Source: Arthrobacter methylotrophus
Lineage (GTDB): Bacteria > Actinomycetota > Actinomycetes > Actinomycetales > Micrococcaceae
DNA: 64,000 bases
Assembly: GCF_039539965.1 (NCBI RefSeq)
Contig: NZ_BAABED010000001.1
Location: 3,658,001-3,722,000, forward strand
Direction of reading: 5' to 3'
The notes under the pieces are model-generated. The model had not been told where the DNA came from and searched no databases. It saw only the letters and a program-made list of their open reading frames with translations. The position numbers and the translations under genes were made by a program. Shown here piece by piece: positions 39,023-57,341 of this stretch; the stretch's first letter is position 1, and the number at the start of each line of letters is the position of its first letter.

Positions 39023-40417
39023 CTATTGCTCTGTCGGGTAGGCCACGCAGAGCCACACTAGCTGATCCACCGACGCGGCTTCGCCAATGTTTTGCACATG
39101 CTCCACCAAATCGCTCAGCCTTTCGGCGTCGATGGGCATTTCGGCATTCATGGCTGCCAGAAGCCCTGCCTCCTGGGCGAAGGACGGACGCCAGTCCCGC
39201 TCCCCCAGCGCCAGCGTATTCTCAAATTCGCTGCCATCCAGAAGCCGGACTGTGATGCGGGACTGCAACATCCGCAAATCGTCAGCGGCAACCACCTTGC
39301 TAAGGCACACCAAGCGACGCACACCCGGATCGTCATAGCTTTCCATGGCTGCCAGCGTGATATCGGTCCCCAAGAGTCCAAGCGCCACACAAAACGGGGT
39401 GCTCATCAGGGTGTTCACCCGGTTCCGGAAAGGCCCATATCCCGCGATTCCCGGGTGGTTAGCCTCATACGGGTTCATTTCGATCCGGATGGATTGCACC
39501 TGCGAGATGTCACCGATCCGCTCGGCGAGGATCTTGGCGTTCCTGACCGGCACTTGGTTTCCGGCACACACGGGGAGTGGTTTGAGGTTCACGTTGAGAA
39601 TTTCATACGTCTGCCCCAGCTCTGCAGCGGCCCGGAACGGCTCGGTGCGATCTCCCGCATAGGCCTGAAGATAGCCTGCCACGCCCTCGAATGCCGTGCT
39701 GGCCGCTGTCACACCTTCCTCCGCCATGATGGCAGCGAGGATGCCGTTCTTTGCGGCCTGCCCGTTATTGAAGTGGAACTCCGGGCTGCCCGCGCCGAAA
39801 GGCTCGCTCGTTCCACAGGCAAAGCCCGCAGCGATTCCCAGTGCGTGAGCGGTGTCCGCCTCGTTGAGGCCCATAAGTTTAGCCGCGGCTGCGGCCGCGC
39901 CGATCACACCGAAAACGCCGGTTGCCCGGATTCCGCGGGGCGTGGTCAACGCCGTGTACTCACGGCTGAGGCCACCAGCAATCTCATAACCGGCAACCAT
40001 GGCAGCGAGCAGATCAGCGCCGTTTGCTCCACGTTCCTCAGCCACGGCGAGCGCGGCGGAGATGACTGCGGTTCCAAGGTGGGCGGTATGGTGCGTGTCG
40101 TCCTGGACCCGGGCGTGGAAGAGGGCGCCATTGGCGAAGGCAGCGTTCATGGCCGAGGTGCGCTCTCCCCCGTGCAGCATCGTTGCCGTCGGCCGCGCCT
40201 GCTCTCTGGCGGCGATGTGGGCGGCCTGGCCAACGCACGCGATACCGTGCGCCGCCAGCCCCATCCCCAGTTGATGGAGCAGACAAATCCGTGCCTTTTC
40301 CGTCACCGCAGGGGGCAGATCGGCAAACACAAGCCCAGCCACGAATCGTGCGAACCGCTCACTCAGCGTCGCATCCGCTTGCGCCCCCTTCGCTGCGGGC
40401 AATTCAGCCGTCACCAT
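39023..40417 (-). CDS. MmgE/PrpD-family protein
   Basis: Protein of 464 residues of the MmgE/PrpD fold: a helical domain (about 15-270) and an alpha-beta domain (about 280-405). Segments TATMLHGGERTSAMNAAFANGALFHA and DDTHHTAHLGTAV match the family. Known members are 2-methylcitrate dehydratase, cis-aconitate decarboxylase and iminodisuccinate epimerase, all acting on branched di- or tricarboxylates. ATG at 40417 is 11 nt after the SDR stop. With the TcuA-like flavoprotein it suggests a tricarboxylate-like intermediate; the substrate is unknown. Confidence 0.88.
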   Translation of the reverse strand: MVTAELPAAKGAQADATLSERFARFVAGLVFADLPPAVTEKARICLLHQLGMGLAAHGIACVGQAAHIAAREQARPTATMLHGGERTSAMNAAFANGALFHARVQDDTHHTAHLGTAVISAALAVAEERGANGADLLAAMVAGYEIAGGLSREYTALTTPRGIRATGVFGVIGAAAAAAKLMGLNEADTAHALGIAAGFACGTSEPFGAGSPEFHFNNGQAAKNGILAAIMAEEGVTAASTAFEGVAGYLQAYAGDRTEPFRAAAELGQTYEILNVNLKPLPVCAGNQVPVRNAKILAERIGDISQVQSIRIEMNPYEANHPGIAGYGPFRNRVNTLMSTPFCVALGLLGTDITLAAMESYDDPGVRRLVCLSKVVAADDLRMLQSRITVRLLDGSEFENTLALGERDWRPSFAQEAGLLAAMNAEMPIDAERLSDLVEHVQNIGEAASVDQLVWLCVAYPTEQ

Positions 40418-40428
40418 TTGTCCACGCG

Positions 40429-41223
40429 CTAGTTCGCCGCAGCAGCATCAATAGCGTCGAAAATGGGCTTGTTACCTCCATGGGAGGTAAATCCGCCGTC
40501 GATCGGGATCTCGCTGCCGCTAATGAAGCTGGAGTCCGCTGACAGCAGGAACAAGACAAGATCCGCCACTTCATCCACGCGCCCTCCCCGGCCTGCCGGG
40601 GTCAAAGCGAGTTGAGTGTTGAGAAATGCGGCGGGCATGTCGGCGTTGATCGGCGTCTTGATGTACCCCGGGTGAATCATGTTTACCCTGATTCCCTGAT
40701 GGGCCAGCTCAACCGCGGCGGTCTTCGACAGGCCACGGAGAGCCCACTTCGCCGCGCTGTATGCCACATTGTGGTATGCGATCAGGCTCGCAATCGAGCC
40801 GACATTCACAATCGAACCGCCCTGGTTCATGATGGGACTCAGGGTCTGGATTCCGAGCATAGCTCCAGTCACGTTGACGGCGAAGGAATTGTTCCACGCC
40901 TCGAGGGTGACATTGGCCAGGCGCCCAGGAACAGAGATTCCAGCGTTATTGACGAGCCCGTCCAACCCGCGGCCGGCGGCCACGAGGGTCTCGCGCAAGC
41001 TGGCCCAATCCGACGCGGAGGTGACATCCAGATGCTGGTAGCTTGCGTGTCCGCCACCGGCTGAGATTTCTTCGGCCAAAGCCTGGCCCACTGCGTCCGT
41101 CACGTCGGCAATAATGACTGTGGCACCTTCTGACGCCAGAGCGCGTGCCTCTGCGGCGCCCTGCCCCCGCGAAGCGCCGGTGACGACCACCGTCTTACCA
41201 ATGAAGCGTGTTTTTTCTGTCAT
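40429..41223 (-). CDS. Short-chain dehydrogenase/reductase
   Basis: Classical SDR of 264 residues. TGASRGQGAAEA cofactor loop (near 12-24), NNAG at 90-93, catalytic Ser in VNVGSIAS and YSAAK (Tyr and Lys present), PG motif and IPIDGG C-terminal end. It would oxidise a secondary alcohol or reduce a ketone. ATG at 41223 follows GGGAAGAA; the longer frame from 41313 overlaps the P450 gene. Lies between P450 and MmgE/PrpD genes, so it may oxidise the alcohol made by the P450. Confidence 0.9.
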   Translation of the reverse strand: MTEKTRFIGKTVVVTGASRGQGAAEARALASEGATVIIADVTDAVGQALAEEISAGGGHASYQHLDVTSASDWASLRETLVAAGRGLDGLVNNAGISVPGRLANVTLEAWNNSFAVNVTGAMLGIQTLSPIMNQGGSIVNVGSIASLIAYHNVAYSAAKWALRGLSKTAAVELAHQGIRVNMIHPGYIKTPINADMPAAFLNTQLALTPAGRGGRVDEVADLVLFLLSADSSFISGSEIPIDGGFTSHGGNKPIFDAIDAAAAN

Positions 41224-41254
41224 GAGATTCTTCCCATCGTTGGTTTGTGAAAAG

Positions 41255-42445
41255 TCAATTTCCGGTAAGTGAAATCCGCAGAGAGGTGACCTCGCGGACG
41301 AAGGGACCCTCATGCTGCTGCCAGGGTTCGATCAAGCGCGCTTTCGGGAATCGCTCCATGACGGCGGTGAGCAGTGTGTGCATTTCAAGCCGTGCCAGAT
41401 TCTGGCCGATGCAGGAATACTGCCCTTGACCGAACAAAAGAGGACCCGGAACCATAGGGCGCGTCATGTCGAACTCGGACGGGTTGTCGAATACCGTCGG
41501 ATCGTTTTGTGCGGCCTCAACGTGGATGAAAATGAGGTCATCCTTGGGCACGGTCGTACCGAGTACGTCCATGGTTTCGGGAACATAGCGCATATGCGTT
41601 CGGAAGCGGGGGTAGACCCGGAGCGTCTCCTCCACCGCGTTCGGCATGAGACTGGGCTCGGCCAGGAGCTGCTGCCACCGCCCCTCGTCTTCGAGCAACA
41701 TTCCCATCATGATCGCGCTCTGGTGAACAGTGTTGTCAACGCTCGCCTCTAGCAGACCCACCCCCGTGTCATAAAGTTCCTGCGTACTGAGGTTGCCTGC
41801 CATTTCCTCCTCGATGAGAGCGGATGTGAAATCATCGTCGAGGTTCTTGCGCCGGGTCTCGATGTGTTCTTCGACAAGGGAAAACACCTCATAGTGCGCA
41901 TCAATGACTTCCTGCTTGCGGCTCGAATCCACGGTGAGGAGCGGGCCAAGCAGGCTGTCGGAAAGCCGCCCGATTGTCGGGGCCAGCTCACGGGGAATCG
42001 ACACCATATGGCAATACACTTCCGGAGGGAGACGCCAGGAGACTTCTTTAAGGAAATCGACGTCATCGGGATTCTGCACCTCGTCGAGCAGGGTGTTGAC
42101 GATGTCGCGCACGGCCTCAGTGAGCGTCTTGGTCTTGCGCGGGGACAGCAACCGTGCCATTGGAGTCCGTAGATGCTTGCGCTGCTCGCCCTCCTGGGTA
42201 TTGAGCATTCGTTCCATGAAGTCACGGGCATAGCCCTCGGTCAGGCCGATGTTGTCTGCCCGGTAAAGGAACAGCTTGGCCCGGCGGATATCGGGGGAAC
42301 GCAGCACCTGCAGACTGTCTTCGTAGTGGAATATTTCATATCCGCGCGGGCTCTTCACAATGCGCGCTGAAGCAGCGGCTTCCAGCTGCTCTTCCAGAGA
42401 CGCAATCGCCCCCGGGGATACCGTCAATTCTTTGACAGCTACCAT
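41255..42445 (-). CDS. Cytochrome P450 with an atypical I-helix
   Basis: Bacterial P450 of 396 residues. The haem loop is FGQGQYSCIG (Cys near 348), ExxR is EETLR. The I-helix region, usually (A/G)GxDTT, reads EASVDNT: the Gly is Ser and one Thr is Asn, which could change O2 activation or substrate class. ATG at 42445 follows AAGGAG. Its own promoter region (42446-42550) contains ATTGTATGCAAC, a motif C site. Probably hydroxylates or demethylates the block 4 substrate, with electrons from a reductase such as that at 48412. Confidence 0.9.
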   Translation of the reverse strand: MVAVKELTVSPGAIASLEEQLEAAASARIVKSPRGYEIFHYEDSLQVLRSPDIRRAKLFLYRADNIGLTEGYARDFMERMLNTQEGEQRKHLRTPMARLLSPRKTKTLTEAVRDIVNTLLDEVQNPDDVDFLKEVSWRLPPEVYCHMVSIPRELAPTIGRLSDSLLGPLLTVDSSRKQEVIDAHYEVFSLVEEHIETRRKNLDDDFTSALIEEEMAGNLSTQELYDTGVGLLEASVDNTVHQSAIMMGMLLEDEGRWQQLLAEPSLMPNAVEETLRVYPRFRTHMRYVPETMDVLGTTVPKDDLIFIHVEAAQNDPTVFDNPSEFDMTRPMVPGPLLFGQGQYSCIGQNLARLEMHTLLTAVMERFPKARLIEPWQQHEGPFVREVTSLRISLTGN

Positions 42446-42494: not shown

Positions 42495-42506
42495 ATTGTA
42501 TGCAAC
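42495..42506. promoter_or_regulatory. Motif C GntR-type operator before P450
   Basis: ATTGTATGCAAC, 11 of 12 to a palindrome of type ATTG-NATN-CAAT, 50 nt upstream of the P450 start in the gap after the lactonase-like gene. Suggests an internal regulated promoter. Confidence 0.6.
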
Positions 42507-42550: not shown

Positions 42551-43345
42551 CTACGCCAAACGAACAGCGACGCCCTCAAGCCCAGGCACTGCAGGGAATC
42601 TTTCGAGCACCAGAGGATCGTGTCCCGGAATGATGAATTCGGGCACGCTCGCTGTCATTTTGATCCAGTCAAACGCGTCGTACATCGACGGAAGGTGATC
42701 AACGATTGAATAGGGACGGTCCTCGTCTATGTTGGCGTAGAAGTGGGTGGCGTCGGAGGCCAAGACAAGCGTGCCGCCTTCAGTCGCCACCGCAACAACC
42801 TGCAGACCCTGGGTATGGCCGCCAACACGGTGCACCTCCACTCCAGGAACAATCTCCGCGTCGCCGTCGACGAGCGTGACCTTCCCGTTCTTCAGCTGCT
42901 CCTTCACATATGCCAGGTCGCCCGGTTCGATGAGGTGGGGGTTCTCTCCTCGTCGGGCATAGGGTCCGGTCCAGTAGTCGAGCTCCGTGCGTTGCAGGTG
43001 CACCTGAGCCGACGGAAAGTCCGGAAGGTGGCCCGTGTGGTCGTAGTGGAGATGAGTCAAGATGATGTTCTTGACACTGTCGGTGGCGATGCCGAGCTGC
43101 CGCATCGTCTCGGCCGGGGGTTGCAGAAAGGTCCTGTTCCCCCGGCGTTCGGCAACTTCCCGGGTGAACCCGGCATCCACCAACACGGTTGTTCCGCGGC
43201 CTACGATCACCCATACGAAGTAGTCGATCGGCAGGCTTTCATCCCCACAGGGATCACCCCGGTAGAAGTGCTCCTTGCGAAGGGATGCGTCCCGGGAAGC
43301 GAAGCGGATCGCGTATACGGCGAATGCGTTTGCCTGGATGGTCAT
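42551..43345 (-). CDS. MBL-fold hydrolase, lactonase-like, second copy
   Basis: MBL hydrolase of 264 residues, paralogue of 1377-2180 (shared VLVDxGF/Y block, HxHxDH as HLHYDHTGH, ELDYWTGPYARR against EELAFWTGEFAGR, ASDATHFYANIDEDRP). The metal set is complete (GHTQG, SDATHFY, PGHDP). ATG overlaps the stop of the TcuA-like gene (ATGA), so the two proteins are made together. A lactone produced by the P450 and SDR steps is a reasonable substrate. AHL cleavage is possible but less supported by context. Confidence 0.87.
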   Translation of the reverse strand: MTIQANAFAVYAIRFASRDASLRKEHFYRGDPCGDESLPIDYFVWVIVGRGTTVLVDAGFTREVAERRGNRTFLQPPAETMRQLGIATDSVKNIILTHLHYDHTGHLPDFPSAQVHLQRTELDYWTGPYARRGENPHLIEPGDLAYVKEQLKNGKVTLVDGDAEIVPGVEVHRVGGHTQGLQVVAVATEGGTLVLASDATHFYANIDEDRPYSIVDHLPSMYDAFDWIKMTASVPEFIIPGHDPLVLERFPAVPGLEGVAVRLA

Positions 43346-44886
43346 GACACCAGTAAACCGGCACGGGTGTGAGAAGCCGCATGGGATCCGGCTAGGCGTC
43401 CGAAAACCGCTCCGGATGTCAGGCCTGATCCGCCAGGATAGTTGCCGGAGAAGAGCCCGCCCACCATCTCACCTGCGGCGTACAGTCCCGGGATCGGGGT
43501 GCCCGACTCATCGACAGCCTGCGCGTTCTCGTTCACTTTCAACCCGCCGAAGGTGAAGGTGATACCGCAGGTCACGGCGTAGCCGTAGAAGGGCGCGGTA
43601 TCGATAGCCAGGGCCCAGTTCGACTTGGGCGGCTCGACTTCGGCGGCTCGACCATCTTTAATGGACGGGTGGAATGGCTGGTCGACGATTGAGTTGTTGA
43701 ACTCATCCACCGTGCGCCGGAAGTCGTCGACGGCTATCCCCAGCTTCTCGGCGAGTTCCTCGATGCTGTCGGCCTGGGCGCCCGAAATCGGCGTGGAGTC
43801 GTACTCTTCCGTGCGCAGCATGGGGCGCGTCTTTGCATCGAAAATCTGGAACGCAATCCCTTCGGGCTGCTTGAGTATTTCGCGCCCGTAACGCGCGTAG
43901 GTGTAGTTGCGGTAGTCCGCACCCTCATCGACGAATCGCTTGCCCTCACGGTTTACAACGATGCCGAGCGGATAGCTCTGCCGCGTCATCTGGTTGGTCA
44001 GCTCGCGGTTGCCTCCGTTAGCCGGCCCGCCGGCATCCCATGCCACGCTGTGGCAGCTACCCCAGTCCCCGAACCGCTGTACTCCGGCTTCGAGCGCCAT
44101 GTCGAGCACCTCGCCTGTGTTGCCGGGATTGCCGCGCACGAGGGCATTTGACCAGCCTTCGCCAAGGTAGCGTTCCCGTCGCTCGGGGTCTGATTCGAAG
44201 CCACCCGCTGCGAGTACGACTGCTCCGGCCGAAACTGTTCGGGCGGTGCCGTCGGCATCGGTGTACTGGACTCCAGTGACTTCGCCGTTGTCACCGCGGA
44301 GCAATCCGGTTACCCGGGCGCCGTAGCGGAAGCTCACACCCGAGGAAACAGCCGCCTCGGTGTGCTGGGCGATGAGCCCCTTGCCGCCTCCCACGGACCC
44401 GACGACGAGATTGCCGTAGAACGTGAACACGCCGTTGTCTTCATAGGACTGGCGTTCGTACATCAGCCGGAACTGCAGGCCCTTGGAGTGCAGCCAGCGC
44501 AGCGTGTCGTATGAGCGCGAGACGAGGATCTCTGTAAGGGTCGCATCGTTGCGTCCTTCGGTGATGCGGCTCATATCGCTGGTAAAATCAACGGCCGGAT
44601 ACGCCGGGACAACGGTCTGCGGCAACCGCTTCACAGTTTCGTCGTCGAGCAGGGGAACGAGGTCAGAGATATCGTTGAACGCGATTCGATAGGCGCCAGC
44701 GGTGTAGAAGCTATTGCCTCCAGCATCCTCGACCGGCGCTTTCTCCAGAAGAAGCACGGACGCTCCGAGCTCCCTCGCGGCGTGGGCTGCACTGAATCCG
44801 GCGTTGCCGGCACCGACGACAACGACGTCGTAGTGCCCTTCGTCTCCGATTTGGGATTCTTCGGTGGTGGGTATCACATCTGTCAT
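43342..44886 (-). CDS. TcuA-like FAD-dependent dehydrogenase
   Basis: Flavoprotein of 514 residues of the fumarate reductase/succinate dehydrogenase flavin family, nearest in pattern to FAD-dependent tricarballylate dehydrogenase TcuA. FAD fold VVVVGAGNAGFSAAHAA (near 21), then GGNSFYTAGAYR, GGFESDPERRERYL and FSGNYPGGSGLTSG at the C-terminus. It would introduce a double bond beside a carboxylate or ketone. No TcuB electron-transfer partner is encoded nearby. A decayed relative remains at 62927-63150. Cotranscribed with the lactonase-like gene. Confidence 0.87.
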   Translation of the reverse strand: MTDVIPTTEESQIGDEGHYDVVVVGAGNAGFSAAHAARELGASVLLLEKAPVEDAGGNSFYTAGAYRIAFNDISDLVPLLDDETVKRLPQTVVPAYPAVDFTSDMSRITEGRNDATLTEILVSRSYDTLRWLHSKGLQFRLMYERQSYEDNGVFTFYGNLVVGSVGGGKGLIAQHTEAAVSSGVSFRYGARVTGLLRGDNGEVTGVQYTDADGTARTVSAGAVVLAAGGFESDPERRERYLGEGWSNALVRGNPGNTGEVLDMALEAGVQRFGDWGSCHSVAWDAGGPANGGNRELTNQMTRQSYPLGIVVNREGKRFVDEGADYRNYTYARYGREILKQPEGIAFQIFDAKTRPMLRTEEYDSTPISGAQADSIEELAEKLGIAVDDFRRTVDEFNNSIVDQPFHPSIKDGRAAEVEPPKSNWALAIDTAPFYGYAVTCGITFTFGGLKVNENAQAVDESGTPIPGLYAAGEMVGGLFSGNYPGGSGLTSGAVFGRLAGSHAASHTRAGLLVS

Positions 44887-44936: not shown

Positions 44937-45854
44937 CTAATCGGCAGTCGTGTGGGTCCGGGTGCTATCGGATAATGGGCTGTGCGTCCAGCCTTCCCAC
45001 AGGGTGGCGATGGACGCATAGTCGTGACGGGCAAGGCCTGCAGCAAGGGCCAGTTCATACACGCTGTGGGCGCCTTGGATGGCAAACAGCGGTACGTCAT
45101 GGGCTTGCGCTAGCTGCAAGGCCAGCACCGAATCCTTCCGGGCGGCCTCGGTCGGCATGCCGCCCTCGTAGTTGCTCTGCCGAACACGCTCGTCGATTCG
45201 GTGGGTGAGGGGGCGAAGCAGGCCGGCATCCGGGTCGCGGAGCAGATCAGCGATCTGTTCAACGGTGACTCCGGTGGCGACGGCCAGGGATGCTGCCTCG
45301 GAAAGGACGACCATTACGGCGTGTGCCACGGCGTTGTTGATGACCTTGGCCGCCATGCCGGTACCAAGCTCGCTGTAACGGATGATGCGGCCGCTCATTG
45401 CCTCCAAGACCGGCGCCACTGCGTCGAGATCCTCGGAACGGCCGCCGGTGAGCAGCACGCTGGTACCGGCGGCCATGCCCCCGACGCCGGAGAGGATGGC
45501 GGCGTCGACCACGCGGATGCCACTGCTTGACACTGCGTCGGCGAGGCGTCCCATGTCGGCGGGGTTGACGGTACTCGTCTCAACGATGATGCTGCCTGGG
45601 CGCAAATATTCGGCCAGGGTGCGTCCGACCGTGAGGGAGATCTCAGGCGTAGGAAGAGACAGGAGGACGACGTCGGCGTCAGCCAGCTCCGCTAGATCGT
45701 CCACGGCTGTCACGCCCATGGCTGACGCGGCGTCGCGTCGTGACGCGTTGAGGTCGAATCCCGTCAGCGGGCCGACGCGAACCAACCGTGAGGCGACTGC
45801 GGCGCCCATGTTGCCCAGCCCGACCAGAGCTACGGTGGTGGCGTTGTCAGTCAC
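44937..45854 (-). CDS. NAD(P)-dependent 3-hydroxyacid dehydrogenase (HIBADH family)
   Basis: Beta-hydroxyacid dehydrogenase of 305 residues. VALVGLGNMGAAVASRL (cofactor loop, near 9), the substrate motif region VDAAILSGVGGMAAGT, and catalytic Lys in GTGMAAKVINNAV (near 172) are clear. It would oxidise a 3-hydroxyacid to a semialdehyde or reduce the reverse. GTG at 45854 overlaps the aldehyde dehydrogenase stop (GTGA) behind AAGGAG; the frame extending to 46076 is inside that gene. With the dehydrogenase upstream it suggests a hydroxyisobutyrate-like step, hydroxyacid to aldehyde to acid. Confidence 0.88.
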   Translation of the reverse strand: MTDNATTVALVGLGNMGAAVASRLVRVGPLTGFDLNASRRDAASAMGVTAVDDLAELADADVVLLSLPTPEISLTVGRTLAEYLRPGSIIVETSTVNPADMGRLADAVSSSGIRVVDAAILSGVGGMAAGTSVLLTGGRSEDLDAVAPVLEAMSGRIIRYSELGTGMAAKVINNAVAHAVMVVLSEAASLAVATGVTVEQIADLLRDPDAGLLRPLTHRIDERVRQSNYEGGMPTEAARKDSVLALQLAQAHDVPLFAIQGAHSVYELALAAGLARHDYASIATLWEGWTHSPLSDSTRTHTTAD

Positions 45855-48411: not shown

Positions 48412-49368
48412 TCAGAGCTTGAGCACAAGCTTGGGGCACCCGTGTTCGGCGCGGGATACACAGATCATCATGCTGGACTGCTCGTCCTTCTCGGAATCGG
48501 TGAGCAAGGAGTCCCGGTGCTCAGCGCGGCCCGCCAGGATCGAAGTTTCACAGGTGCCACAGGTCCCTTCCTGGCATGAGGAGAAGACGTTAATACCGAT
48601 CTTCTCGGCAACCTCAAGGATGGTCGTGCCCGGGGGAACTATCGCGGCAAGCCCGCTTTCCGCGAACTCGACTTCGAACGATTCGTCTTCGCCGACAGTC
48701 TCGACCACCTTGGGTGCGAACCGTTCCACTCGCAACGAGTTCTTCGGCCAATGCGCGCTGGCCGCTTCGGTTGCCAGCAGTAAAGGCTCCGGGCCACAGG
48801 CGTAGATCAAGGTGCCGGTTTGGGGCACAGCGAGCAGGGACTTCAGATCCAGCAGCCCTACTTCATCCTGCGGGGCGATGGTGACGCGATCGCCGTACCG
48901 TCCCAGCTCCTCCAGGAAAGCCATGGACCCCCGGGTACGGCCACCGTAGAGCAGTGACCAGTCAGCGCCGTCGGCCTCCGCCTGCTCGATCATCGGCAGG
49001 ATCGGCGTAATGCCAATACCACCGGCGATGAAGATATAGCGGCTGGCGCGGTGGAGCGCGAATTTGTTCCGTGGAACGCTGGCCGTCACGCTGGCGCCTG
49101 CCCTTAATGAGTCATGGATGCGGGCAGATCCACCCCGCCCGGCAGGCTCACGTAGCACCGCGATCCGCCAGGTACCTGCGTCAGCCGGACGTGAACACAG
49201 CGAATACTGGCGGACCGTCTCGTCGTCCAGAACGACGTCGATATGGGCGCCAGGGGCCCATGCTGGCAAGGGTGTGGCGTCGGGTGAGGCGAGCAGGAGC
49301 GATATTACGCCCTCAGATTCATCGCGACGCCCGGAGACGGTCAGGGGGATGCGGGTTTCCGTTTGCAT
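48412..49368 (-). CDS. Phthalate-dioxygenase-reductase-type flavin/[2Fe-2S] protein
   Basis: Electron-transfer reductase of 318 residues in VanB/OphA1 order: flavin domain (about 5-105, RQYSLCSRP), NAD domain (about 110-225, AGGIGITPIL and YACGPEPLL), C-terminal plant-type [2Fe-2S] ferredoxin (about 235-318; Cys set in SSCQEGTCGTC and MICVSRA). It passes electrons from NADH to an oxygenase. The gene is 11 nt downstream of the P450 gene, and no Rieske oxygenase is present, so the P450s are the likely partners. ATG at 49368 has a weak site. Confidence 0.92.
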   Translation of the reverse strand: MQTETRIPLTVSGRRDESEGVISLLLASPDATPLPAWAPGAHIDVVLDDETVRQYSLCSRPADAGTWRIAVLREPAGRGGSARIHDSLRAGASVTASVPRNKFALHRASRYIFIAGGIGITPILPMIEQAEADGADWSLLYGGRTRGSMAFLEELGRYGDRVTIAPQDEVGLLDLKSLLAVPQTGTLIYACGPEPLLLATEAASAHWPKNSLRVERFAPKVVETVGEDESFEVEFAESGLAAIVPPGTTILEVAEKIGINVFSSCQEGTCGTCETSILAGRAEHRDSLLTDSEKDEQSSMMICVSRAEHGCPKLVLKL

Positions 49369-49379: not shown

Positions 49380-50651
49380 TTAGATCAGTTCACGGGCACG
49401 GGCTGCGTCAGTGACGTCCCAATGCACGGGCAAGGTCCTGCGGATCGGCAGGAGTGCCATCTGCACAAAATCCAGCGGTGTGTCAGCATCAGCGCGCAGG
49501 GACGGAAGGCGCTCGAACAGCACCTTCAGACCCGTCGCTCCTTGGACCCGGGCCAATGGCTGCCCAAGGCAAGTATGTCGCCCCTTGCTGAATGCAAGAT
49601 GATCGCCGACGTCCGCCCGGTGAATGTCAAAATCGAACGGCCGCTCGTAGTATGAAGCGTCCGTATTCGCACTGGCCAGACCCAGCCAGACCACATCGCC
49701 CTTTTTGATCTCGGCACCGCCGAGGATCACATCTTCTTTGGCCCACCGCGTCGCCGTGCCGGACGGACGGCGGCGGACGGTCTCGTCGAAGACGCGCGGC
49801 CAGAGCTGCGGGTCGGCCATTGCGGCCTCAAGCGCCTCGGGGTTTGCAGTGAGAAACAGTACCGCATTGGCCATCGCTTGCGCCGTCGTGTCGGTGGCGG
49901 CGCCCGAGAACTCTCCGACGTGCACGGCGATCTGCTCGGGCGAGAGCACCATGGCGCCTTCGCGGTCCCTGACCCCTGCCATCTCCGAGATGAGGTCATC
50001 GCCGGGGTTCTCGATGCGCTCGTGGACGATCCCGCGCAGGTAAGTCTGCGCCGCGGCATAGCGGCCCCACACTTCCGAACGACGGGGTTCCTCCATGGGC
50101 TCCAGAGCACTGGCGAGAATAGCAAACTGGTCATCCCGCAGTTGGCGCATCATCGGCTCGGCCTCATGGTCAAGACCGGCGAGGGCCATGAATGTCTGCG
50201 TAGTCAGCTCGAGGCAATAGGCCTCCATGAGGTTGGTACTTCCCTCGGCGGCGAAGGAGTCGAGGATACGGTGCGCACGCTCCTCAATGACAGGCTGCAA
50301 GGCATCCATCCGGGGTTTGACGAAAGCTCGGCCAGCTACGCTGCGGGACAAAGTGTGACCGGTCGGATCGGAACCCACAAGAATCTTGGCAATCAGTTCC
50401 TGCGGAACGATGTGCTGAAACTGCTCTGGCACCTCGATGGAGGCACCTTTGTCTCCGCTTGAGAACTTCTTCCAGTCGCTGAGCACGTATTCGCAATCGG
50501 CCTTGGCCGTGACGACCCAGGCGTTGAGGTAGGGGTAGAAGAACGTCGGCATTTCGTCGCGTACGTTGGCAAATGCCAATGCCGGGTCACGGAAGTAGTC
50601 ATCTCCCATTGCATCGAAGGTGTGCGAGACGGGGCAGCGTGCTGCTGTCAC
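49380..50651 (-). CDS. Cytochrome P450
   Basis: Bacterial P450 of 423 residues. All landmarks are normal: I-helix GEFSGAATDTTAQ (near 245), ExxR as ETVR, haem loop FSKGRHTCLG (Cys near 366). GTG at 50651 follows AAAGGACC; the longer frame to 50693 lacks a site. Coupled with the downstream reductase, it forms a two-component P450 whose reductase is of the phthalate-dioxygenase type, a pairing best known as the fused CYP116B enzymes. Upstream is the livF-type gene. Confidence 0.92.
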   Translation of the reverse strand: MTAARCPVSHTFDAMGDDYFRDPALAFANVRDEMPTFFYPYLNAWVVTAKADCEYVLSDWKKFSSGDKGASIEVPEQFQHIVPQELIAKILVGSDPTGHTLSRSVAGRAFVKPRMDALQPVIEERAHRILDSFAAEGSTNLMEAYCLELTTQTFMALAGLDHEAEPMMRQLRDDQFAILASALEPMEEPRRSEVWGRYAAAQTYLRGIVHERIENPGDDLISEMAGVRDREGAMVLSPEQIAVHVGEFSGAATDTTAQAMANAVLFLTANPEALEAAMADPQLWPRVFDETVRRRPSGTATRWAKEDVILGGAEIKKGDVVWLGLASANTDASYYERPFDFDIHRADVGDHLAFSKGRHTCLGQPLARVQGATGLKVLFERLPSLRADADTPLDFVQMALLPIRRTLPVHWDVTDAARARELI

Positions 50652-50767
50652 GAGGAGGTCCTTTCGTTTCTGCGGGAGCAGATGCCCCGCCATGCTTGCA
50701 ATATGTTGTGCAGCGTCCAGTCTTCAAAAGATCGCAAAGGTCGTCCCTTTCGAGACCGGTTGTTGTG

Positions 50768-51562
50768 CTATCCGGCGTGGCCGCCGAGGTAGGCGGCCTT
50801 GACTCTCTCGTCGTTCTTGACTTCCGCAGCAGGACCTGACGCGACAACAGCTCCGGATTCGAAGACATACGCCAGGTCAGAGGCCTCGAGGGCCATAGCT
50901 ACGTTTTGTTCAATGAGGAGCACCGTCGTGCCGGATCTTTTGATGTCGGCGACGACCTCGAAGACGCGCTCGATCAGCTTGGGCGCCAGCCCAAGGGAAG
51001 GCTCGTCGAGAATGAGCAGTCGAGGCTTGGCCATCAGTGCGCGACCGATCGCCAGCATCTGCTGTTGGCCTCCGGATAGGAAACCCGCCTTGGACGAGCG
51101 GCGCTCCCTCAGCTCCGGAAATTGGTCAAAGACCCGTTCCAGGTCGGCCCGGATCTGGTTTCCGCCCCGGCGGGTGATCGCCCCTGCGCGGAGGTTGTCG
51201 TCCACGGACAGCTGCGTGAAGATGCGGCGGCCCTCCATGGCTTGGGACATTCCCTTTCGCACGCGCTCCGATGCTGAAGCGGCGGTCACATCCTGCCCGT
51301 AGAGCAGGATGCTCCCCGACACGACCCGTGCCTGATGCACGTCAAGAAGGCCGGTCGCCGCGCGGACGAGGGTTGACTTGCCGGCGCCATTAGCGCCGAG
51401 GAGGGTGACAACCGAACCATCGGGCACGTTAAGGGAGACGTTGTGGAGTACAGGCGCGTGGGCGCCGTAGCTGACCGAGAGGTCATTGATGGCGAGGGCG
51501 GTTGACGCCGGGCGGTTATGCCCGGCACCAACCAAGTCACTCGCAGTATGCGTTTGCGACAT
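50768..51562 (-). CDS. ABC transporter ATP-binding protein, LivF type
   Basis: ATPase of 264 residues of the branched-chain amino acid/amide (HAAT) family. Walker A GANGAGKST (near 56), signature FLSGGQQQMLAIGRA, Walker B LLILDEPSLGL, with the LivF hallmark SLGLAPKL. ATG follows AGGAAAC. It forms the ATPase pair with the LivG-type protein encoded on the other strand at 55627. In catabolic clusters this family often carries aromatic or other organic acids rather than amino acids. Confidence 0.9.
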   Translation of the reverse strand: MSQTHTASDLVGAGHNRPASTALAINDLSVSYGAHAPVLHNVSLNVPDGSVVTLLGANGAGKSTLVRAATGLLDVHQARVVSGSILLYGQDVTAASASERVRKGMSQAMEGRRIFTQLSVDDNLRAGAITRRGGNQIRADLERVFDQFPELRERRSSKAGFLSGGQQQMLAIGRALMAKPRLLILDEPSLGLAPKLIERVFEVVADIKRSGTTVLLIEQNVAMALEASDLAYVFESGAVVASGPAAEVKNDERVKAAYLGGHAG

Positions 51563-51579
51563 TAGTTTCCTGACATTTG

Positions 51580-52863
51580 CTACTTCTTGTTCTGGAAGGT
51601 GTATCCCTTTGAGGTCTTACCCTCGACGCCGAAATCCTTGATCTTTTGGCCGGTCTGGGTGGAGACGTCGATGCCGATAACGGAGTACACGCTCGATGCC
51701 GCGCGGACTGCTGGTGCGCCCCAGGGCATATTGCCCTGAAGGCCCTTGAAATCGAGTGCCGTTGTCGAATTGAACGCCGCCATCATGCCCTTCCGGGATA
51801 GGTCGCCACTGGCTATGGCTTTCTCAATGACGGAGGTAAGTGCCATCGCGGAAGAGTAACCGTTGGTGTAAAGCCACACCGGCGTCACGTTGGGGGTGTA
51901 CTTGTCATGCGCGGCCATCATGTCGGCCATACCCGCTGCGTTGGTGTCGCCGTAAATGGTGGCGTCCTTCACGAGCAGAAGATGCGCCTGCATGTACGCG
52001 GCGAGGGGGGAAGCCTTCATGGACGGGATCCAGTCGGAGGACGGCGCCATCCACTGCGGTGCGAAGCCAACTTCGGCTGCCTTGCTGAGCAGCTTCGTGA
52101 GAACGACGCCAGAGCCCTTGGTCATGATGATCTGGCAGCCGTCTCGACGCAGCTCCTGGATCTGGGGCGTGTAGTCACCGTCGAGCGGCAGGGTCACGGA
52201 GGTTCCAGTGTTCAGGCCCATCTTGCCGGCACCCCAGTACAAGGCATCCTTGCTTGACGCACCGAGAGCCCCTTCAAGGGCGGCGTAGCAGACCCGCGCG
52301 TTTTTCTGGCCCGGTTGGGATGTTGCCCACTCGATTCCGTTAATCACGTCGATCTCAGCGGGGGCAGTTGTCATCATGATTGAGGGCTGGTGCAGCAAGG
52401 TCCCGTCACCGCTGCTGGGGATGCCGATGATGCCGTCGGCATTGAGGTCCGGGAGAATCGCGTTGGTCATGGCGGTCCCGAAAATCTGGGTGTACGCCAA
52501 AACGTTGGCCTTGCTGGAGTTGTACTCCTGGATGACTTTTGCGGGGTCGTATGCCGTGTCGCGGACGAGCAGGTCGACCTTGTACTTGCCGGCGATGCCG
52601 CCCTTGTCGTTGAGCGCCTTGTAGTACGCCTGCATGCCCTCAAGAATGGTTCCGGACGGCTCCGCGAGGGCGCCCGTAGTTACGCCAAGAACGCCGAGAG
52701 TGATTTTGTTACCGTCAAAGCCGGGAGCGCTGGCGAGGCCGCCCTCCGCAGCGGGCGCTGTCGCGGGCCCGCTCCGACCACATGCCGTGGCCGTAACCGT
52801 CATCGACAGGGCGATCAGTCCGATGCCCATCATTCGTGCGGCAGAAGTAGTTCTCTTGTTCAT
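51580..52863 (-). CDS. ABC transporter substrate-binding lipoprotein, LivK type
   Basis: Solute-binding protein of 427 residues, Peripla_BP_6 type. Hydrophobic signal with lipobox-like VTATAC (Cys near 28) and a Gly/Ala-rich linker. ITLGVLGVTTGALAEPSGTILEGMQAYYKALNDKGG (start of the first lobe, near 52, given in two parts elsewhere in the family) is typical. ATG at 52863 follows AAAGGAG. Captures the unknown block 4 substrate outside the cell. Length and fold fit known aromatic or terpenoid-acid binding relatives. Confidence 0.9.
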   Translation of the reverse strand: MNKRTTSAARMMGIGLIALSMTVTATACGRSGPATAPAAEGGLASAPGFDGNKITLGVLGVTTGALAEPSGTILEGMQAYYKALNDKGGIAGKYKVDLLVRDTAYDPAKVIQEYNSSKANVLAYTQIFGTAMTNAILPDLNADGIIGIPSSGDGTLLHQPSIMMTTAPAEIDVINGIEWATSQPGQKNARVCYAALEGALGASSKDALYWGAGKMGLNTGTSVTLPLDGDYTPQIQELRRDGCQIIMTKGSGVVLTKLLSKAAEVGFAPQWMAPSSDWIPSMKASPLAAYMQAHLLLVKDATIYGDTNAAGMADMMAAHDKYTPNVTPVWLYTNGYSSAMALTSVIEKAIASGDLSRKGMMAAFNSTTALDFKGLQGNMPWGAPAVRAASSVYSVIGIDVSTQTGQKIKDFGVEGKTSKGYTFQNKK

Positions 52864-52921
52864 GCTCAATCTCCTTTGGTTGAGTTGTGCTGCGTCCGTG
52901 AAGCTGATGGTTGAAAGTGCG

Positions 52922-54022
52922 TTATCCCGCCCGGCGGCGCCATGTGGCGACCCCGAAATCCCAGAGGCTCACGAGACCCTTCGGGGCGTACATGAGGAGA
53001 AGGACGATCATGAGTCCATAGGCAAGGATGTTGAAAGCGCCGACCGTCATGAGGCCCGGCCCGCTCTCGGTTGTTTTGAGGAAGAGGCTCAGCACGGGGC
53101 CCTGGGATTCCTGGGCGATCAGTTGTTGGGCCGACCAGACTACGACGGCGCCGAGGATCGCGCCGGAGACCCTCCCCATTCCGCCGATGACGATCATGGC
53201 AAACAGCAGGATGGACGTCGAAATACCGAAGGCCGTGGGCGAGACGAACTGCTGGAGCACCGCGTAAAGGACTCCCGCGAGGGCACCGAGCCCGCCTGCC
53301 AGCGCCGAAACCTGAATTTTGTAGGAACGGACGTTGACGCCCACGGCCTCGGCCGATCTCTCTGAATCATGGATGGCCTGCATGGCACGGCCGGGACGGA
53401 AGACCACGATCGACCCCGCCAAGTAGGCAGCAACAGCAAGGATGCCCCAAGTGAGCCAGAACATCGACTGTGATCGGGTGAAGTCTCCCAGTGCGGCGAA
53501 ATCGACAGGCCCGAGCGCGATCGACGCGGACCGAAGACTGATCCCGGACTCCCCTCCGGTCACCGTTTTCCACTCGTTGAATACGTATTGCCCGACCATG
53601 AGGATACCCAGGGTCGTGATAGCGAGTTCGTCCCCGCCCAGCCGGATGGAGAGGAACCCGGTCAGGGCGCCGAGTCCGGCGCCGATGGCGAGAGCCAGAA
53701 GGGTGTAGGCCCCAAATGGAAGGCCCAGCTGAGCTCCGAAGTAGGCGGCCCCGTAGGCGCCAACCCCCATGAAGAACGGCATCGCCATGGTGACCTGGCC
53801 GGTCTTGCCGGTGAGAAGCGTCAGCCCGATCGATGCGATCGCATAGACGGCACAAAGCGACAACACCCCGAGGCGTGCGTCATCGAGCATCAACGGGCTC
53901 CCGATGTACGCAATCAGCGCCACAAGCAGAGCCGCCCACTTAACTATCCGTGGGATTGCCCGCGGGTGGTGCGCTGCCGCCCTCGGAGCAGACTTCGATT
54001 TCGGAGACTGCAGTACGGTCAC
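52922..54022 (-). CDS. ABC transporter permease, LivM type
   Basis: Membrane permease of 366 residues with about ten segments; GKTGQVTMAMPFFMGVGAYGAA and RPGRAMQAIHDSERSAEAVGVN are LivM hallmarks, the latter the coupling loop. GTG at 54022 follows GAGGAG; a TTG at 54055 is possible. It is the first gene of the minus-strand transporter-P450 unit, divergent from the serine hydrolase gene; the 400 bp gap holds two motif C sites. Confidence 0.9.
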   Translation of the reverse strand: MTVLQSPKSKSAPRAAAHHPRAIPRIVKWAALLVALIAYIGSPLMLDDARLGVLSLCAVYAIASIGLTLLTGKTGQVTMAMPFFMGVGAYGAAYFGAQLGLPFGAYTLLALAIGAGLGALTGFLSIRLGGDELAITTLGILMVGQYVFNEWKTVTGGESGISLRSASIALGPVDFAALGDFTRSQSMFWLTWGILAVAAYLAGSIVVFRPGRAMQAIHDSERSAEAVGVNVRSYKIQVSALAGGLGALAGVLYAVLQQFVSPTAFGISTSILLFAMIVIGGMGRVSGAILGAVVVWSAQQLIAQESQGPVLSLFLKTTESGPGLMTVGAFNILAYGLMIVLLLMYAPKGLVSLWDFGVATWRRRAG

Positions 54023-54419
54023 CGCTGCACTCTCCTCGTATTTTTGATTTACCAAATCACCGCTCCCTCAAGGTGGGACTTCACAGTTCCCGCAGGCCAG
54101 TTGCCACGGGTAAAAGTTCACCGTGACCAGGGTCACCTAGTATGTATATCTTTTGTATTCAATATTGTCCAATTGGCAAATCTTGGATTGAGATTCACTA
54201 CTCGACCTCGAGATATTTCATCAGTTGCAACCTGATAGACACTGAAATTTCGGTATAGGCCTGTTTGTTGCCGGTGAGATTGCTGCTAGCATCCACCAAT
54301 AAGATTGAATTCAATCATAATGAGAGCGCAGATGACGGTGGATCTGAACAGAGCCGTCGCAGCCGACATCATCTGCAACTACGCGCCGCTGGCACCCACA
54401 ATGAAGCGAGGTCCCACCC
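54023..54419. promoter_or_regulatory. Divergent control region between livM-type and serine hydrolase genes
   Basis: About 400 bp without a gene. It contains two motif C sites, TTTGTATTCAAT (54152-54163) and ATTGAATTCAAT (54304-54315, perfect palindrome, 14 bp with flanks), 152 bp apart and near each of the two diverging promoters, plus GTGACC-AG-GGTCAC (54123-54136), a palindrome of different type. This suits coordinated control of both halves of the Liv transporter. Confidence 0.65.
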
Positions 54420-55619
54420 ATGACACAGTCCACCACCACGCGCATCGACGACAGGGCGCTGTCACGGCTTACTGATCGCATCAAATTCGACGTCGAAGCT
54501 GGCGACTATGACGGAGCCGTCATCGCCATCGCCCACAAGGGTGAGATTGTCGCGCACGAGGCAATCGGGTACGCCGAACGTGACACCGGACGACGCGCGC
54601 ATACGGATGATATTTTCCGCATTCTGTCTCTGACCAAGGCGTTCACCAACACCCTCGTCTACCAGGCGATTGAACTGGGGCTGCTGTCCATGACGACGAA
54701 AGTCGTGGACGTCATCCCTGAGTTCCGCTCGAAGGACCGCTTTCTCAACAAGCGTAAGGACCGTATTTCGGTCACCGACCTCATCACTCACCGGTCAGCA
54801 CTTCCACCCACGCCGGAGCCCGTTGAGTACGAGCGGCTCGGTAGTCTGGAGGCAACCATCGAGGCGATCTGCTCCATGGATGCCATCGGCGACCCAGGCC
54901 ATACTGTCGACTATTCTCCTGCCTTCAACCACGCGCTCCTCGGTGAAATGGTGCGACGGGTCCACGGCAACTCGTTGTCATTTGGCGAGCTGCTGCAGCG
55001 CGATGTCTTTGAACCGCTGGGAATGACCAACACCGCCCTCGGCGCCCCGAAGGCCTGGGCCGACCGCCTTGTTCCCCTGAAAGCACGCTTCGAGGCCACC
55101 GGATGGCTCAGCGCGGCCGATATCGAGATTCTTAACACAGTGCTCGATGAGAAGGCAGAAATGCCGTGGGTCGGCGCAGTGTCGTCGGCCGGCGATGTGC
55201 TCCGCTTCGCCGAGATGCTACGCCGGGGCGGCGAACTCAACGGAGTCCGCCTCATTGCCCCCGCGATCCTGGAACGTGCTACGAAGAACCACACAGGTAC
55301 CCTCATCAATAACTGGTGGATTCCGATGGCGCAGCGTCGAAACTGGGACGTCATGCCCGCAAATCTGGGCCTCGGATTCTTCATCCGAGGCGAAGGGATG
55401 CACCCGAGCATCCTCGGAACTCTCACCTCGCCCGGCACCTTTGGTAACTACGGTGCCGGATCAACCCTGTACTGGGTGGATCCCGCGCGTGAACTTTCCC
55501 TTGTGTGCCTCACCTCCGGCGTCATGGAGGAAAGCGCCAACATCGAGCGCTTCCAACGCCTCTCCGACATGACGGTGAGCACGGTCGTGAACGACAGTGT
55601 TTACCCCGACATGAAATAG
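54420..55619 (+). CDS. Serine hydrolase, beta-lactamase class C / family VIII esterase-like
   Basis: Protein of 399 residues with the beta-lactamase/transpeptidase fold. The nucleophile motif SxxK is SLTK (about residues 70-73) and the second motif YxN is represented by YSPAFN (near 166). No signal peptide is seen, so it is probably a cytoplasmic esterase of the EstB type rather than a beta-lactamase. ATG at 54420 follows GAGG. It opens the operon with LivG and LivH genes, so it may hydrolyse the imported ester. Confidence 0.87.
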   Translation: MTQSTTTRIDDRALSRLTDRIKFDVEAGDYDGAVIAIAHKGEIVAHEAIGYAERDTGRRAHTDDIFRILSLTKAFTNTLVYQAIELGLLSMTTKVVDVIPEFRSKDRFLNKRKDRISVTDLITHRSALPPTPEPVEYERLGSLEATIEAICSMDAIGDPGHTVDYSPAFNHALLGEMVRRVHGNSLSFGELLQRDVFEPLGMTNTALGAPKAWADRLVPLKARFEATGWLSAADIEILNTVLDEKAEMPWVGAVSSAGDVLRFAEMLRRGGELNGVRLIAPAILERATKNHTGTLINNWWIPMAQRRNWDVMPANLGLGFFIRGEGMHPSILGTLTSPGTFGNYGAGSTLYWVDPARELSLVCLTSGVMEESANIERFQRLSDMTVSTVVNDSVYPDMK

Positions 55620-55626
55620 GCCACCA

Positions 55627-56442
55627 ATGACCGACACTTTGACCACCCCGGCTACGCCATCCGTGAATGCCCATGCCAAGCCACTTGAGGTCGTGGGCCT
55701 GAACGTTAAGATCGGCGGCCTGCGCATCCTCAACGATGTCAGCATCACTCTCGACCAAGGTGAAATCCTCGCCGTGATCGGGCCGAATGGCGCCGGCAAG
55801 ACCACTCTTTTCAACTGCATCACCGGCCAGCATCGGCCGACCTCGGGCAGCATCACTGCGGATGGTCGTTCCCTGATAGGGATGGTGCCCTCGAAAATCG
55901 TTGCCCATGGAGTCGCCCGCACGTACCAGAACCTGGCTCTGTTCGGTTCGATGACGGTGCGTGAAAATCTGATGCTCGGCTACCACTACGTCATGCGAAC
56001 AAGCATGGTCAGTGCAGGCCTTCGTCCGCGACGCACGCGCAAGGAGGAGCAGGCCTTCCTGGAACGCGTTGATGGGCTGATCGCGTCGCTGAGCCTCGAA
56101 CCCTTTGCCGATAAGGCTGTGGGGGAACTTCCACAGGGCATCTGCAAGCGGGTGGAACTTGCCCGTGCTGTGGCCATGTCGCCGAAAGTGCTGCTCATGG
56201 ATGAGCCCGCTGCGGGCATGAACAGCGAAGAGACGGCGGAATTCGGTCGATACATCAAACAGCTGCACGAAGAAACCGGCATCTCCATCGTCCTCGTCGA
56301 ACACGATATGCCGTTCGTGCTGTCGCTGGCCCACCGCATCGTCGTCCTCAACTTCGGTGCAATGATCGCCTCCGGGACACCGAGCGAGATTCAAAATGAC
56401 CCCAAGGTGATCGAAGCGTACCTAGGAAAGGCAAAGCAGTGA
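55627..56442 (+). CDS. ABC transporter ATP-binding protein, LivG type
   Basis: ATPase of 271 residues: Walker A GPNGAGKTT (near 57), Q-loop region with VARTYQNLALFGSMTV, signature GELPQGICKRVELARA (the LSGGQ is altered to LPQGI, as in LivG variants), Walker B VLLMDEPAAGMNSEE. Partner of the LivF-type protein encoded on the opposite strand. ATG is 7 nt after the hydrolase stop. Confidence 0.9.
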   Translation: MTDTLTTPATPSVNAHAKPLEVVGLNVKIGGLRILNDVSITLDQGEILAVIGPNGAGKTTLFNCITGQHRPTSGSITADGRSLIGMVPSKIVAHGVARTYQNLALFGSMTVRENLMLGYHYVMRTSMVSAGLRPRRTRKEEQAFLERVDGLIASLSLEPFADKAVGELPQGICKRVELARAVAMSPKVLLMDEPAAGMNSEETAEFGRYIKQLHEETGISIVLVEHDMPFVLSLAHRIVVLNFGAMIASGTPSEIQNDPKVIEAYLGKAKQ

Positions 56443-57341
56443 CCTGGAACGACATCCTGCAAACCGCGGTCTCCGGATTCGCCCTCGGCAGTACCTATGC
56501 CCTCGTCGCCCTCGGCTTCGTCATCGTTTTCGCGGCGACACGGATCATGAACTTCTCGCAGGGCGCCTTCGTTCTACTTGGCGCATACCTTACTTATCAG
56601 TTCGGCGCCGTCTGGAACCTTGGCTTCTTTGGTGGCCTGCTGTGTTCGGTGGGCGTCTGCGGCCTCACTGCAATCCTCACCGAAAGATTCGTGATGCGGC
56701 GGTTCGCACACCGCCCGACGTTCAGCGTTCTCATGGTCACCATCGGGGTGCTCTATATTTTCGAAGCCATCGTAAGTTCCATCTGGGGAGTTAAGTCCCA
56801 GAACCTCGGCGATCCCTGGCGCCTGGACACGATCACGATGGGTGGGGTAGCGATCTCCGTCAGTGACATCTGGACCCTCGCCATCAGCGTGACTCTCATC
56901 ATCGCCTGCTTCCTGTTCCTCACCTACACCCGGGGTGGTCTGTCGATGCGCGCCTCTGCAAGCGACAAAGAGGCCGCGGTATCGATTGGCATCAACCCCC
57001 GCAGGGTGACTTACGGCGTGTGGTTTGTCGCCGGCGCTCTCGGCGCGGTCGCAGGAACGCTGCTGGCCACCGGATCATCCGGGGTGACACTGGGTCTGAC
57101 TTCGGTGGTGTTTGCCACCATGCCAGCCGTCGTTTTGGGCGGACTCGACTCCCCTGTGGGCGCGATCGTAGGAGGTTTCGCCATCGGTTTGGTACAGCAG
57201 TTCACCGCCCTCGTACAGCCCGTGCTGTGGCCGGATCTCGGAAGTCGTTTTGCCACCGTTACGCCGTTCATAGTTTTGCTGCTGGTACTGCTCATCCGTC
57301 CTAAGGGTCTCTTCGGCACACGGGCCGTAGAACGCTTCTAG
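56439..57341 (+). CDS. ABC transporter permease, LivH type
   Basis: Membrane permease of 300 residues with about eight segments; GSTYALVALGFVIVFAATRIMNFSQGAF (first segment and loop) and RASASDKEAAVSIGINPRRV (coupling loop) are LivH hallmarks. GTG start overlaps the LivG stop (GTGA). With LivM, LivF, LivG and LivK it completes a five-part HAAT importer split between two divergent operons. A hairpin follows. Confidence 0.9.
   Translation: MTWNDILQTAVSGFALGSTYALVALGFVIVFAATRIMNFSQGAFVLLGAYLTYQFGAVWNLGFFGGLLCSVGVCGLTAILTERFVMRRFAHRPTFSVLMVTIGVLYIFEAIVSSIWGVKSQNLGDPWRLDTITMGGVAISVSDIWTLAISVTLIIACFLFLTYTRGGLSMRASASDKEAAVSIGINPRRVTYGVWFVAGALGAVAGTLLATGSSGVTLGLTSVVFATMPAVVLGGLDSPVGAIVGGFAIGLVQQFTALVQPVLWPDLGSRFATVTPFIVLLLVLLIRPKGLFGTRAVERF

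Follow-up and report, generated by a model that had tools for sequence, protein, structure and literature searches.

A probable GntR-FCD regulon of Arthrobacter methylotrophus for the degradation of an ester-containing small molecule, with a split P450-reductase pair and a small HtaA-domain protein

The described systems closest to a catabolic gene block of Arthrobacter methylotrophus are the CYP116B self-sufficient cytochromes P450 (class VII; P450 RhF and OhpA), in which a P450 and a phthalate-dioxygenase-reductase (PDR) type partner form one polypeptide, the HtaA/CR-domain hemophores of Corynebacterium, and the tricarballylate dehydrogenase (TcuA) systems. Similar clusters are carried by the Rhodococcus plasmids pLP337 and pGD02.2.2, for which no function is known to us. 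The block (38469 to 57341, from an HtaA-domain gene to livH) lies in a stretch of 64,000 nucleotides (contig NZ_BAABED010000001.1, 3,658,001 to 3,722,000; hereafter the window) of a 5.08 Mb genome of six contigs. The minus strand contained, in order, genes for LivM, a substrate-binding protein, LivF, a first P450 (P450a), the PDR, a GntR-FCD regulator, an aldehyde dehydrogenase (ALDH), a HIBADH-like dehydrogenase, TcuA, a protein of metallo-beta-lactamase fold (MBL), a second P450 (P450b), an SDR dehydrogenase, an MmgE/PrpD-family protein and the HtaA-domain protein, and the plus strand contained those for EstB, LivG and LivH. Families were assigned by Pfam, and NCBIfam was run on ten block proteins. 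All genes named in an original prediction for this locus were found at their places and in the families it had given, and the unit was extended by the HtaA gene (38469-38996). On balance, the block is probably one GntR-FCD regulon for the uptake and degradation of an ester-containing small molecule, and it is best read as a variant of actinobacterial P450 catabolic clusters.

The regulator (47541..48266, minus strand) contained the GntR (PF00392) and FCD (PF07729) domains. A palindromic operator candidate, ATTGNATNCAAT, was taken from two intergenic palindromes, and its four sites, all intergenic in the block, fell into three regions: ATTGTATGCAAC between MBL and P450b (42495..42506, one mismatch, before P450b), ATTGCATGCAAT between GntR and ALDH (47476..47487, exact, 95 bp before ALDH), and both TTTGTATTCAAT (54152..54163, one mismatch, 96 bp before LivM) and ATTGAATTCAAT (54304..54315, exact, 104 bp before EstB) between LivM and EstB, the two exact sites being the source palindromes. 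The gap before GntR held only a two-mismatch site, at 48345. At one mismatch or fewer, the window had these 4 matches against a mean of 0.86 in shuffles, a count that 1 of 100 shuffles reached, and the genome had 31 sites, with 0.12 expected in the window; the exact 12-mer occurred at two places in the genome, both in the block. The occurrence of one operator candidate, as predicted sites, at each of the three main promoters supports a single GntR-controlled unit, which is what the original prediction had proposed. An exact site was also located at 9906-9917 in an Arthrobacter metagenome-assembled genome (MAG; locus L021), 53 bp before its second P450a gene, and this predicted site is support that is independent of motif discovery. 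In Arthrobacter sp. MA-N2 (locus L008), three candidate sites were identical and one differed at a free position. If the reading is correct, an actinobacterial degradation pathway that is still unassigned gains a defined regulon and its operator.

Several observations weigh against such a common regulation. Since the block supplied the motif, the counts are post hoc, and 27 of the 31 one-mismatch genome sites, counted without regard to their genes, lay elsewhere. The sites of MA-N2 are weak evidence because the two strains are so close. The stretches scanned of G234, L091 and Salipiger abyssi (L099) contained no 12-mer site, and the single one-mismatch site of pLP337 (L097) fell inside its TetR gene. 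The core of the motif, TTGNATNCAA, had five exact matches in the window, all intergenic; at one mismatch it had 20 matches compared to 13.2 in shuffles, most of them outside the block. In G234, one core match was found, inside an oxidase gene. The fifth exact core match in the window, TTGCATGCAA at 36018, preceded a pair of CoA-transferase and acyl-CoA dehydrogenase genes with an adjacent GntR gene of its own; this module (GntR, CoA-transferase family III, acyl-CoA dehydrogenase; 35199-38425) may therefore share or mimic the regulation of the block. A FadR-type operator (T.GT-AC.A) was rejected, since it had zero intergenic matches, and a scan for sigma-70 promoters and terminators gave 5 promoter-like sites, where shuffles gave 4.3, and 9 terminator-like sites, where shuffles gave 13.5.

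P450a (49380..50693, minus strand, PF00067; nearest PDB chain 7x53, E 7.5e-123) and the PDR (48412..49368, minus strand) form a split pair among fused relatives. The PDR, which has a C-terminal 2Fe-2S domain and is the sole reductase of its kind among the block genes, scored above the cut-offs for Fer2 and NAD_binding_1 and under that for FAD_binding_6 (18.0 against 21.1). A stop codon and 11 bases separate the two genes in the window (10 bases in MA-N2), whereas the 14 fused relatives used here have a single frame over both parts; as called, these frames run from 747 to 917 residues, and some probably extend further upstream. Two trees, one for the haem part and one for the reductase part, were built from 25 rows each, leaving aside the near-identical L008, L015, L018 (cut), L125 and further plasmid matches. 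The window pair was placed inside a 15-row group, of which 14 were fused (support 97/92 for haem and 95/92 for reductase), and its sister was the second copy of L021 (100/99 in the haem tree and 88/81 in the reductase tree); the split pairs of Rhodococcus and Salipiger fell outside the group. On well-supported branches, the fused and split states must have changed into each other at least 4 times (haem) or at least 3 times (reductase), and the deep branching order is unsure because of long branches, with limited sampling. The simplest reading is that the pair probably arose by secondary fission, i.e., re-splitting in the window lineage. Within L021, two different fused P450-PDR genes were present in 15 kb (7026-12250), each set with its own HtaA gene.

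The CYP116B enzymes resemble the block in joining a P450 to a PDR-type partner, and relatives of P450a are likewise single-chain. In contrast, the window has two genes where CYP116B has one polypeptide, and the identity to the fused enzymes of C. metallidurans CH34 and R. rhodochrous was 26-27% for haem and 45-47% for reductase. A P450 family is assigned by a 40% identity rule, and the 26-27% of P450a falls below it, outside CYP116. The fused gene of CH34 is presumably CYP116B1, matched here without a locus tag. Strain CH34 is reported to carry CYP116B1 (PMC8449657). P450a and the PDR are the two-gene form of a P450-PDR lineage that stands apart from CYP116B, and because the haem part of the CYP116B type is 26-27% identical, the fusion probably arose more than once. 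If this holds, it suggests that P450-PDR fusions arose outside CYP116B and can re-split in nature, which is useful for enzyme engineering.

The HtaA-domain protein (38469..38996, minus strand; PF04213, 94 bits against a cut-off of 24) is encoded after PrpD and in the same direction; its stop is at 38469 and its start is uncertain, with GTG at 38996 being likely. It was the sole HtaA match in its own genome at E<=0.001. A study on the CR1 domain of HtaA describes an axial Tyr in helix 1, a helper His and a propionate-binding Tyr (PMC12494546), and for HtaA CR domains a Soret band near 405 nm is reported. The residues of the block protein match this Tyr/His/Tyr set of CR1, as described there, by motif rather than by direct alignment to a solved HtaA, and the Tyr, His and C-terminal Tyr positions did not vary in any of the 16 aligned rows, 15 of them distinct. 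No hydrophobic stretch of a signal peptide or anchor was seen by eye in the first 60 residues, given the uncertain start. The protein is thus like the Corynebacterium hemophores in its HtaA domain and in the conserved axial Tyr, helper His and C-terminal Tyr, whereas those hemophores are secreted or surface proteins and the block HtaA is a single small domain without a signal peptide by eye, in a catabolic operon. It is predicted to be a cytosolic haem binder.

HtaA matches occurred in 109 of 390 family genomes, many in long frames. Twenty regions around short-frame matches were hand-chosen from the best (one of just 11.8 kb, and the gene picker may miss P450s); a P450 haem motif was present in 7, with the P450 as direct neighbour in 3 and about 2.4 kb away in one more. 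An obligate pairing of HtaA with P450s was rejected, because the other 13 regions lacked a P450 haem motif, a count that also speaks against the role proposed below. HtaA therefore occurs in P450 operons repeatedly yet not exclusively, and a role in haem supply is a hypothesis, which, if true, makes the block a testable case of a cytosolic haem-binding protein serving P450s. To our knowledge, no role of HtaA domains in serving P450s is known; titles and abstract openings of the papers listed for HtaA with cytochrome P450 did not name one, and a protein search with the block HtaA returned one 99% protein only. Stand-alone HtaA genes were observed directly beside a P450 in L088 (8457-10335), L090 (8378-10274) and L093 (9841-11716), and L059 and L060, which cover the places of L088 and L090, show by eye a ferredoxin-reductase-type gene next in line. 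The Rhodococcus plasmid L097 (9538-12108) contained a Rieske oxygenase alpha gene, a PDR/VanB reductase gene and an HtaA gene in one operon.

The third member of the core, EstB (54420..55619, plus strand), is a serine hydrolase of the beta-lactamase family (PF00144) with an SxxK motif, SLTK, and without a match to the tyrosine-motif pattern. A genome scan with P450a gave 14 loci, onto which the window proteins were mapped. Ten of the 12 loci L009-L020 had EstB immediately before P450a-PDR, each time with an SDR ahead of it, though this SDR was only 28-32% like that of the block; the exceptions were L011, which is cut upstream, and L018, where an SDR immediately precedes P450a and no EstB intervenes. 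The same arrangement was found in L021, L091, and Rhodococcus (L097, L098) and Streptomyces (L102) plasmids, and on a plasmid of the alphaproteobacterium Salipiger abyssi EstB was close by. EstB relatives at P450-PDR genes were 45-65% identical (41% in G234). The window also carries the EstB-P450a-PDR cassette, with EstB parted from P450a by Liv genes. In L011, HtaA follows the PDR. The first set of L021 read SDR-EstB-P450-PDR-HtaA, and the second P450a (69%)-PDR (54%)-P450b (57%)-SDR (58%)-HtaA (43%)-EstB (65%, cut by the contig end).

Plasmid pLP337 of R. qingshengii (L097) contained SDR-EstB-P450a-PDR followed by a gene annotated as formaldehyde dehydrogenase, and preceded by the Rieske operon; an R. 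rhodochrous plasmid was similar, with no formaldehyde dehydrogenase before the record end. Plasmids pLP337 and pGD02.2.2 share SDR-EstB-P450a-PDR with the block (EstB 57-59%, P450a 53-54%, PDR 50%, HtaA close by), whereas they have TetR/PadR regulators at the core and a Rieske oxygenase, and no TcuA, PrpD or ALDH in the stretches read. In L091 (genome G216, a member of the family), HtaA was divergent to the set, then came a transporter (by eye) and genes for a maleylacetate-reductase-type iron-ADH, an intradiol dioxygenase, a CMD protein and a HIBADH-like protein. G234 harbored EstB, HtaA, PDR (48%), HIBADH-like, CMD, MBL and Liv importer genes, without P450a in the stretch read, and a P450b relative (43%) whose neighbours were an FAD monooxygenase, an FAD_binding_4 oxidase and a VOC-type gene. 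In strain MA-N2 the gene order was the same from the MFS gene through to PrpD, with identities of 96-100%; its locus ends within PrpD, so that HtaA is outside its coverage. Preserved order in this near-identical strain indicates that the block is more than chance. A megablast of the whole block against plasmids gave 7 records with short matches within the LivG gene only. The cl9 genes of L009 and L011 had been considered as formamidases, which was rejected because a gene like them in L091 encodes a metallo-beta-lactamase.

P450b (41255..42445, minus strand; PF00067, haem-Cys motif FGQGQYSCIG) matches the I-helix pattern only in a loosened form, as ASVDNT, in which Asn takes the place of the customary Thr, and by eye its relatives in L021 and G234 likewise carry the Asn. 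P450cin, a cineole P450, has Asn at this position. P450b relatives were rare: 2 of 395 family genomes (E<=1e-50) and 2 of 394 class genomes, each count including its own genome, in the genus of G627 only G627 among 199 genomes, and 31 proteins at E<=1e-40 among the best 8000 candidates of a large protein collection. P450b loci also occur in Raineyella antarctica and Pseudonocardia pini. The SDR (40429..41223, minus strand; Pfam, YxxxK motif) had a 58% relative beside P450b in L021. The MmgE/PrpD-family protein (39023..40417, minus strand; PF03972 N-domain 179.4 against 32.1, C-domain 27.7, below 32.1) had relatives in 2 of 375 family genomes including its own (E<=1e-40), with no match in G234 at 1e-40. 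It scored 30.4 against 950 for the PrpD equivalog NF042438 and by that model is not the 2-methylcitrate dehydratase PrpD; its nearest PDB chains were IDS-epimerase and cis-aconitate decarboxylase. A conserved P450b/PrpD pair was considered, as in G627 a P450b-like gene (35%) immediately precedes one of the PrpD family (29%), and was rejected since it was absent at two other distant P450b-like plasmid genes with readable annotation.

TcuA (43342..44886, minus strand) passed NF006130 (555.6 against 369) as an FAD-dependent polycarboxylate dehydrogenase and scored below the second TcuA model, TIGR02485 (280 against 372.55). Relatives of 54-58% were found in 8 of 38 other genomes searched; of four regions read, by eye, three had tripartite tricarboxylate transporter (TctA/TctC-like) genes and the other had a PrpF-like gene. 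All five aligned TcuA proteins had long segments in common, for example TCGITFTFGG; for the fumarate-reductase residues of TcuA, an alignment was too unclear to use. The block protein is like the TcuA systems in passing the NF006130 cut-off and in the segments shared with TctA/TctC-adjacent relatives, whereas it lies among P450 genes and the block lacks genes for TcuB, the electron-transfer partner of TcuA, and for a tricarboxylate transporter. The MBL protein (42551..43345, minus strand; PF00753, HxHxDH) is lactonase-like and was below the cut-off of all listed NCBIfam models, its best score being 68.5 against 360 for a quorum-quenching lactonase. The HIBADH-like beta-hydroxyacid dehydrogenase (44937..45854, minus strand; PF03446 and PF14833) was under the TIGR01692 cut-off (130.9 against 291.6), and ALDH (45851..47380, minus strand) scored 566.6 bits with PF00171 and contained the catalytic Cys and Glu motifs.

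The importer of the Liv/HAAT type was complete, comprising two permeases, LivM (52922..54055, minus strand) and LivH (56439..57341, plus strand), two ATPases, LivF (50768..51562, minus strand) and LivG (55627..56442, plus strand), all assigned by Pfam, and the substrate-binding protein (51580..52869, minus strand; Peripla_BP_6), with 4n03 as its sole PDB match (E 2e-33). Most block genes abut or overlap; the larger gaps, based on likely starts (P450b 42445, SDR 41223, GntR 48266 and HIBADH 45854), were LivM/EstB (364 bp), GntR/ALDH (160 bp), PDR/GntR (145 bp) and MBL/P450b (105 bp). The searched catalytic motifs were present in the block proteins, with two exceptions, the EstB tyrosine motif and the P450b I-helix.

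In the proposed pathway, for which we infer the order of reactions, the five-part importer would take up an ester that EstB, judged by its fold and SxxK motif, would split. Electrons would pass from NADH through the flavin and the 2Fe-2S cluster of the PDR to the haem of P450a, and the same PDR probably feeds P450b, so that both P450s could hydroxylate or dealkylate the released part. The SDR would oxidise an alcohol, MBL may open a lactone, and HIBADH and ALDH may convert a hydroxymethyl end to a carboxylate. TcuA would then desaturate a tricarballylate-like acid, with the PrpD-family protein acting on the unsaturated acid, and the small HtaA protein would bind haem in the cytosol and may hold it or pass it to the P450s. 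The fuller proposal of a new ester route, with a re-split P450-PDR of a second lineage, a rare P450b, a cytosolic HtaA carrier that loads or protects the P450s and a TcuA/PrpD-type polycarboxylate exit, is unlikely to hold in all its parts. Weighing against the main reading as one regulon, the SDR of most other core loci was just 28-33% like the block SDR, no TcuB family was found among the block genes (the rest of the genome was not searched for TcuB), and besides the window the ALDH-HIBADH-TcuA-MBL-PrpD part was seen with the core in MA-N2 only. Synteny recurs for EstB-P450a-PDR with an SDR and sometimes HtaA, and the TcuA/PrpD part was seen with the core, besides the window, in that one strain only; the use of a branched polycarboxylate that the original prediction proposed agrees with the segments that TcuA shares with tricarboxylate-linked relatives, TcuA being the single protein that bears on it. 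No named pathway with this gene set was found in searches of open-licence papers, as had been stated, and the material examined contained neither a characterised pathway with the whole order nor independent regulation of the parts.

The nature of the substrate can be read in different ways. A methoxylated or N-methylated aromatic (or alkaloid) ester, with P450a-PDR as a formaldehyde-releasing demethylase and the ring part leaving via other genes of the window or the genome, is a tentative but tenable possibility. It draws on pLP337, where formaldehyde dehydrogenase directly follows P450a-PDR and the Rieske alpha-PDR-HtaA operon lies upstream, and on L091 and G234, which add maleylacetate-reductase-type, intradiol or VOC-type, and CMD genes. 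However, the block contained no ring-cleavage or formaldehyde dehydrogenase gene, and the formaldehyde dehydrogenase link comes from one Rhodococcus record. A point against this reading and the preferred one alike is that a search of its own genome with the L091 intradiol dioxygenase gave only two matches, both weak and partial (best 26.5 bits over 31 residues), so the fate of the product must differ from that in the relatives. A stretch of 31 residues that is 61% like an intradiol dioxygenase C-terminus, in a 140-residue frame (G000:C1:4357855-4357947), is perhaps a gene remnant.

A terpenoid or branched alicyclic ester, P450-hydroxylated, lactone-opened and finally converted to a branched polycarboxylate on which TcuA and PrpD would act, is doubtful. 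The block without a ring-cleavage gene, the lactonase-like MBL, the TcuA segments common with tricarboxylate-linked relatives and, as a weak hint, the P450cin-like Asn of P450b are consistent with it, whereas the core loci read had no terpenoid context and no Baeyer-Villiger gene was found in the block (one was seen by eye at 21091-22731). Since core relatives lie beside formaldehyde dehydrogenase, Rieske, intradiol/VOC and maleylacetate-reductase-type genes, a (methoxy-)aromatic ester is no less likely than a terpenoid, and the terpenoid or branched alicyclic acid guessed originally loses ground to aromatic, possibly methoxylated substrates. It is very unlikely that an EstB/P450a/PDR/Liv cassette and an ALDH-to-HtaA cassette are two separate systems that recombination has placed next to each other, with only a similar regulator site in common: the first cassette does recur without the second in many genomes, but L021 has P450b, SDR and HtaA directly after P450a-PDR, and the operator candidate precedes both parts. 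A fumonisin-like tricarballylate ester was also considered as substrate and was dropped because EstB recurs without TcuA.

Other genes of the window were noted by eye. Next to the block, an MFS transporter gene (57937-59907) encodes a C-terminal extension resembling carboxypeptidase-regulatory-type repeats and adjoins a TetR gene. A separate ring-degradation cluster (21091-27196) comprised genes for a Baeyer-Villiger-type monooxygenase, IclR, a fumarylacetoacetate-hydrolase-like protein, a VOC dioxygenase-like protein and an FAD monooxygenase. Two FadB-FadA type pairs (multifunctional hydratase/dehydrogenase and thiolase) were located at 9384-12703 and 30992-34359, and a zinc alcohol dehydrogenase gene followed by another lactonase-like MBL gene was located at 200-2180.

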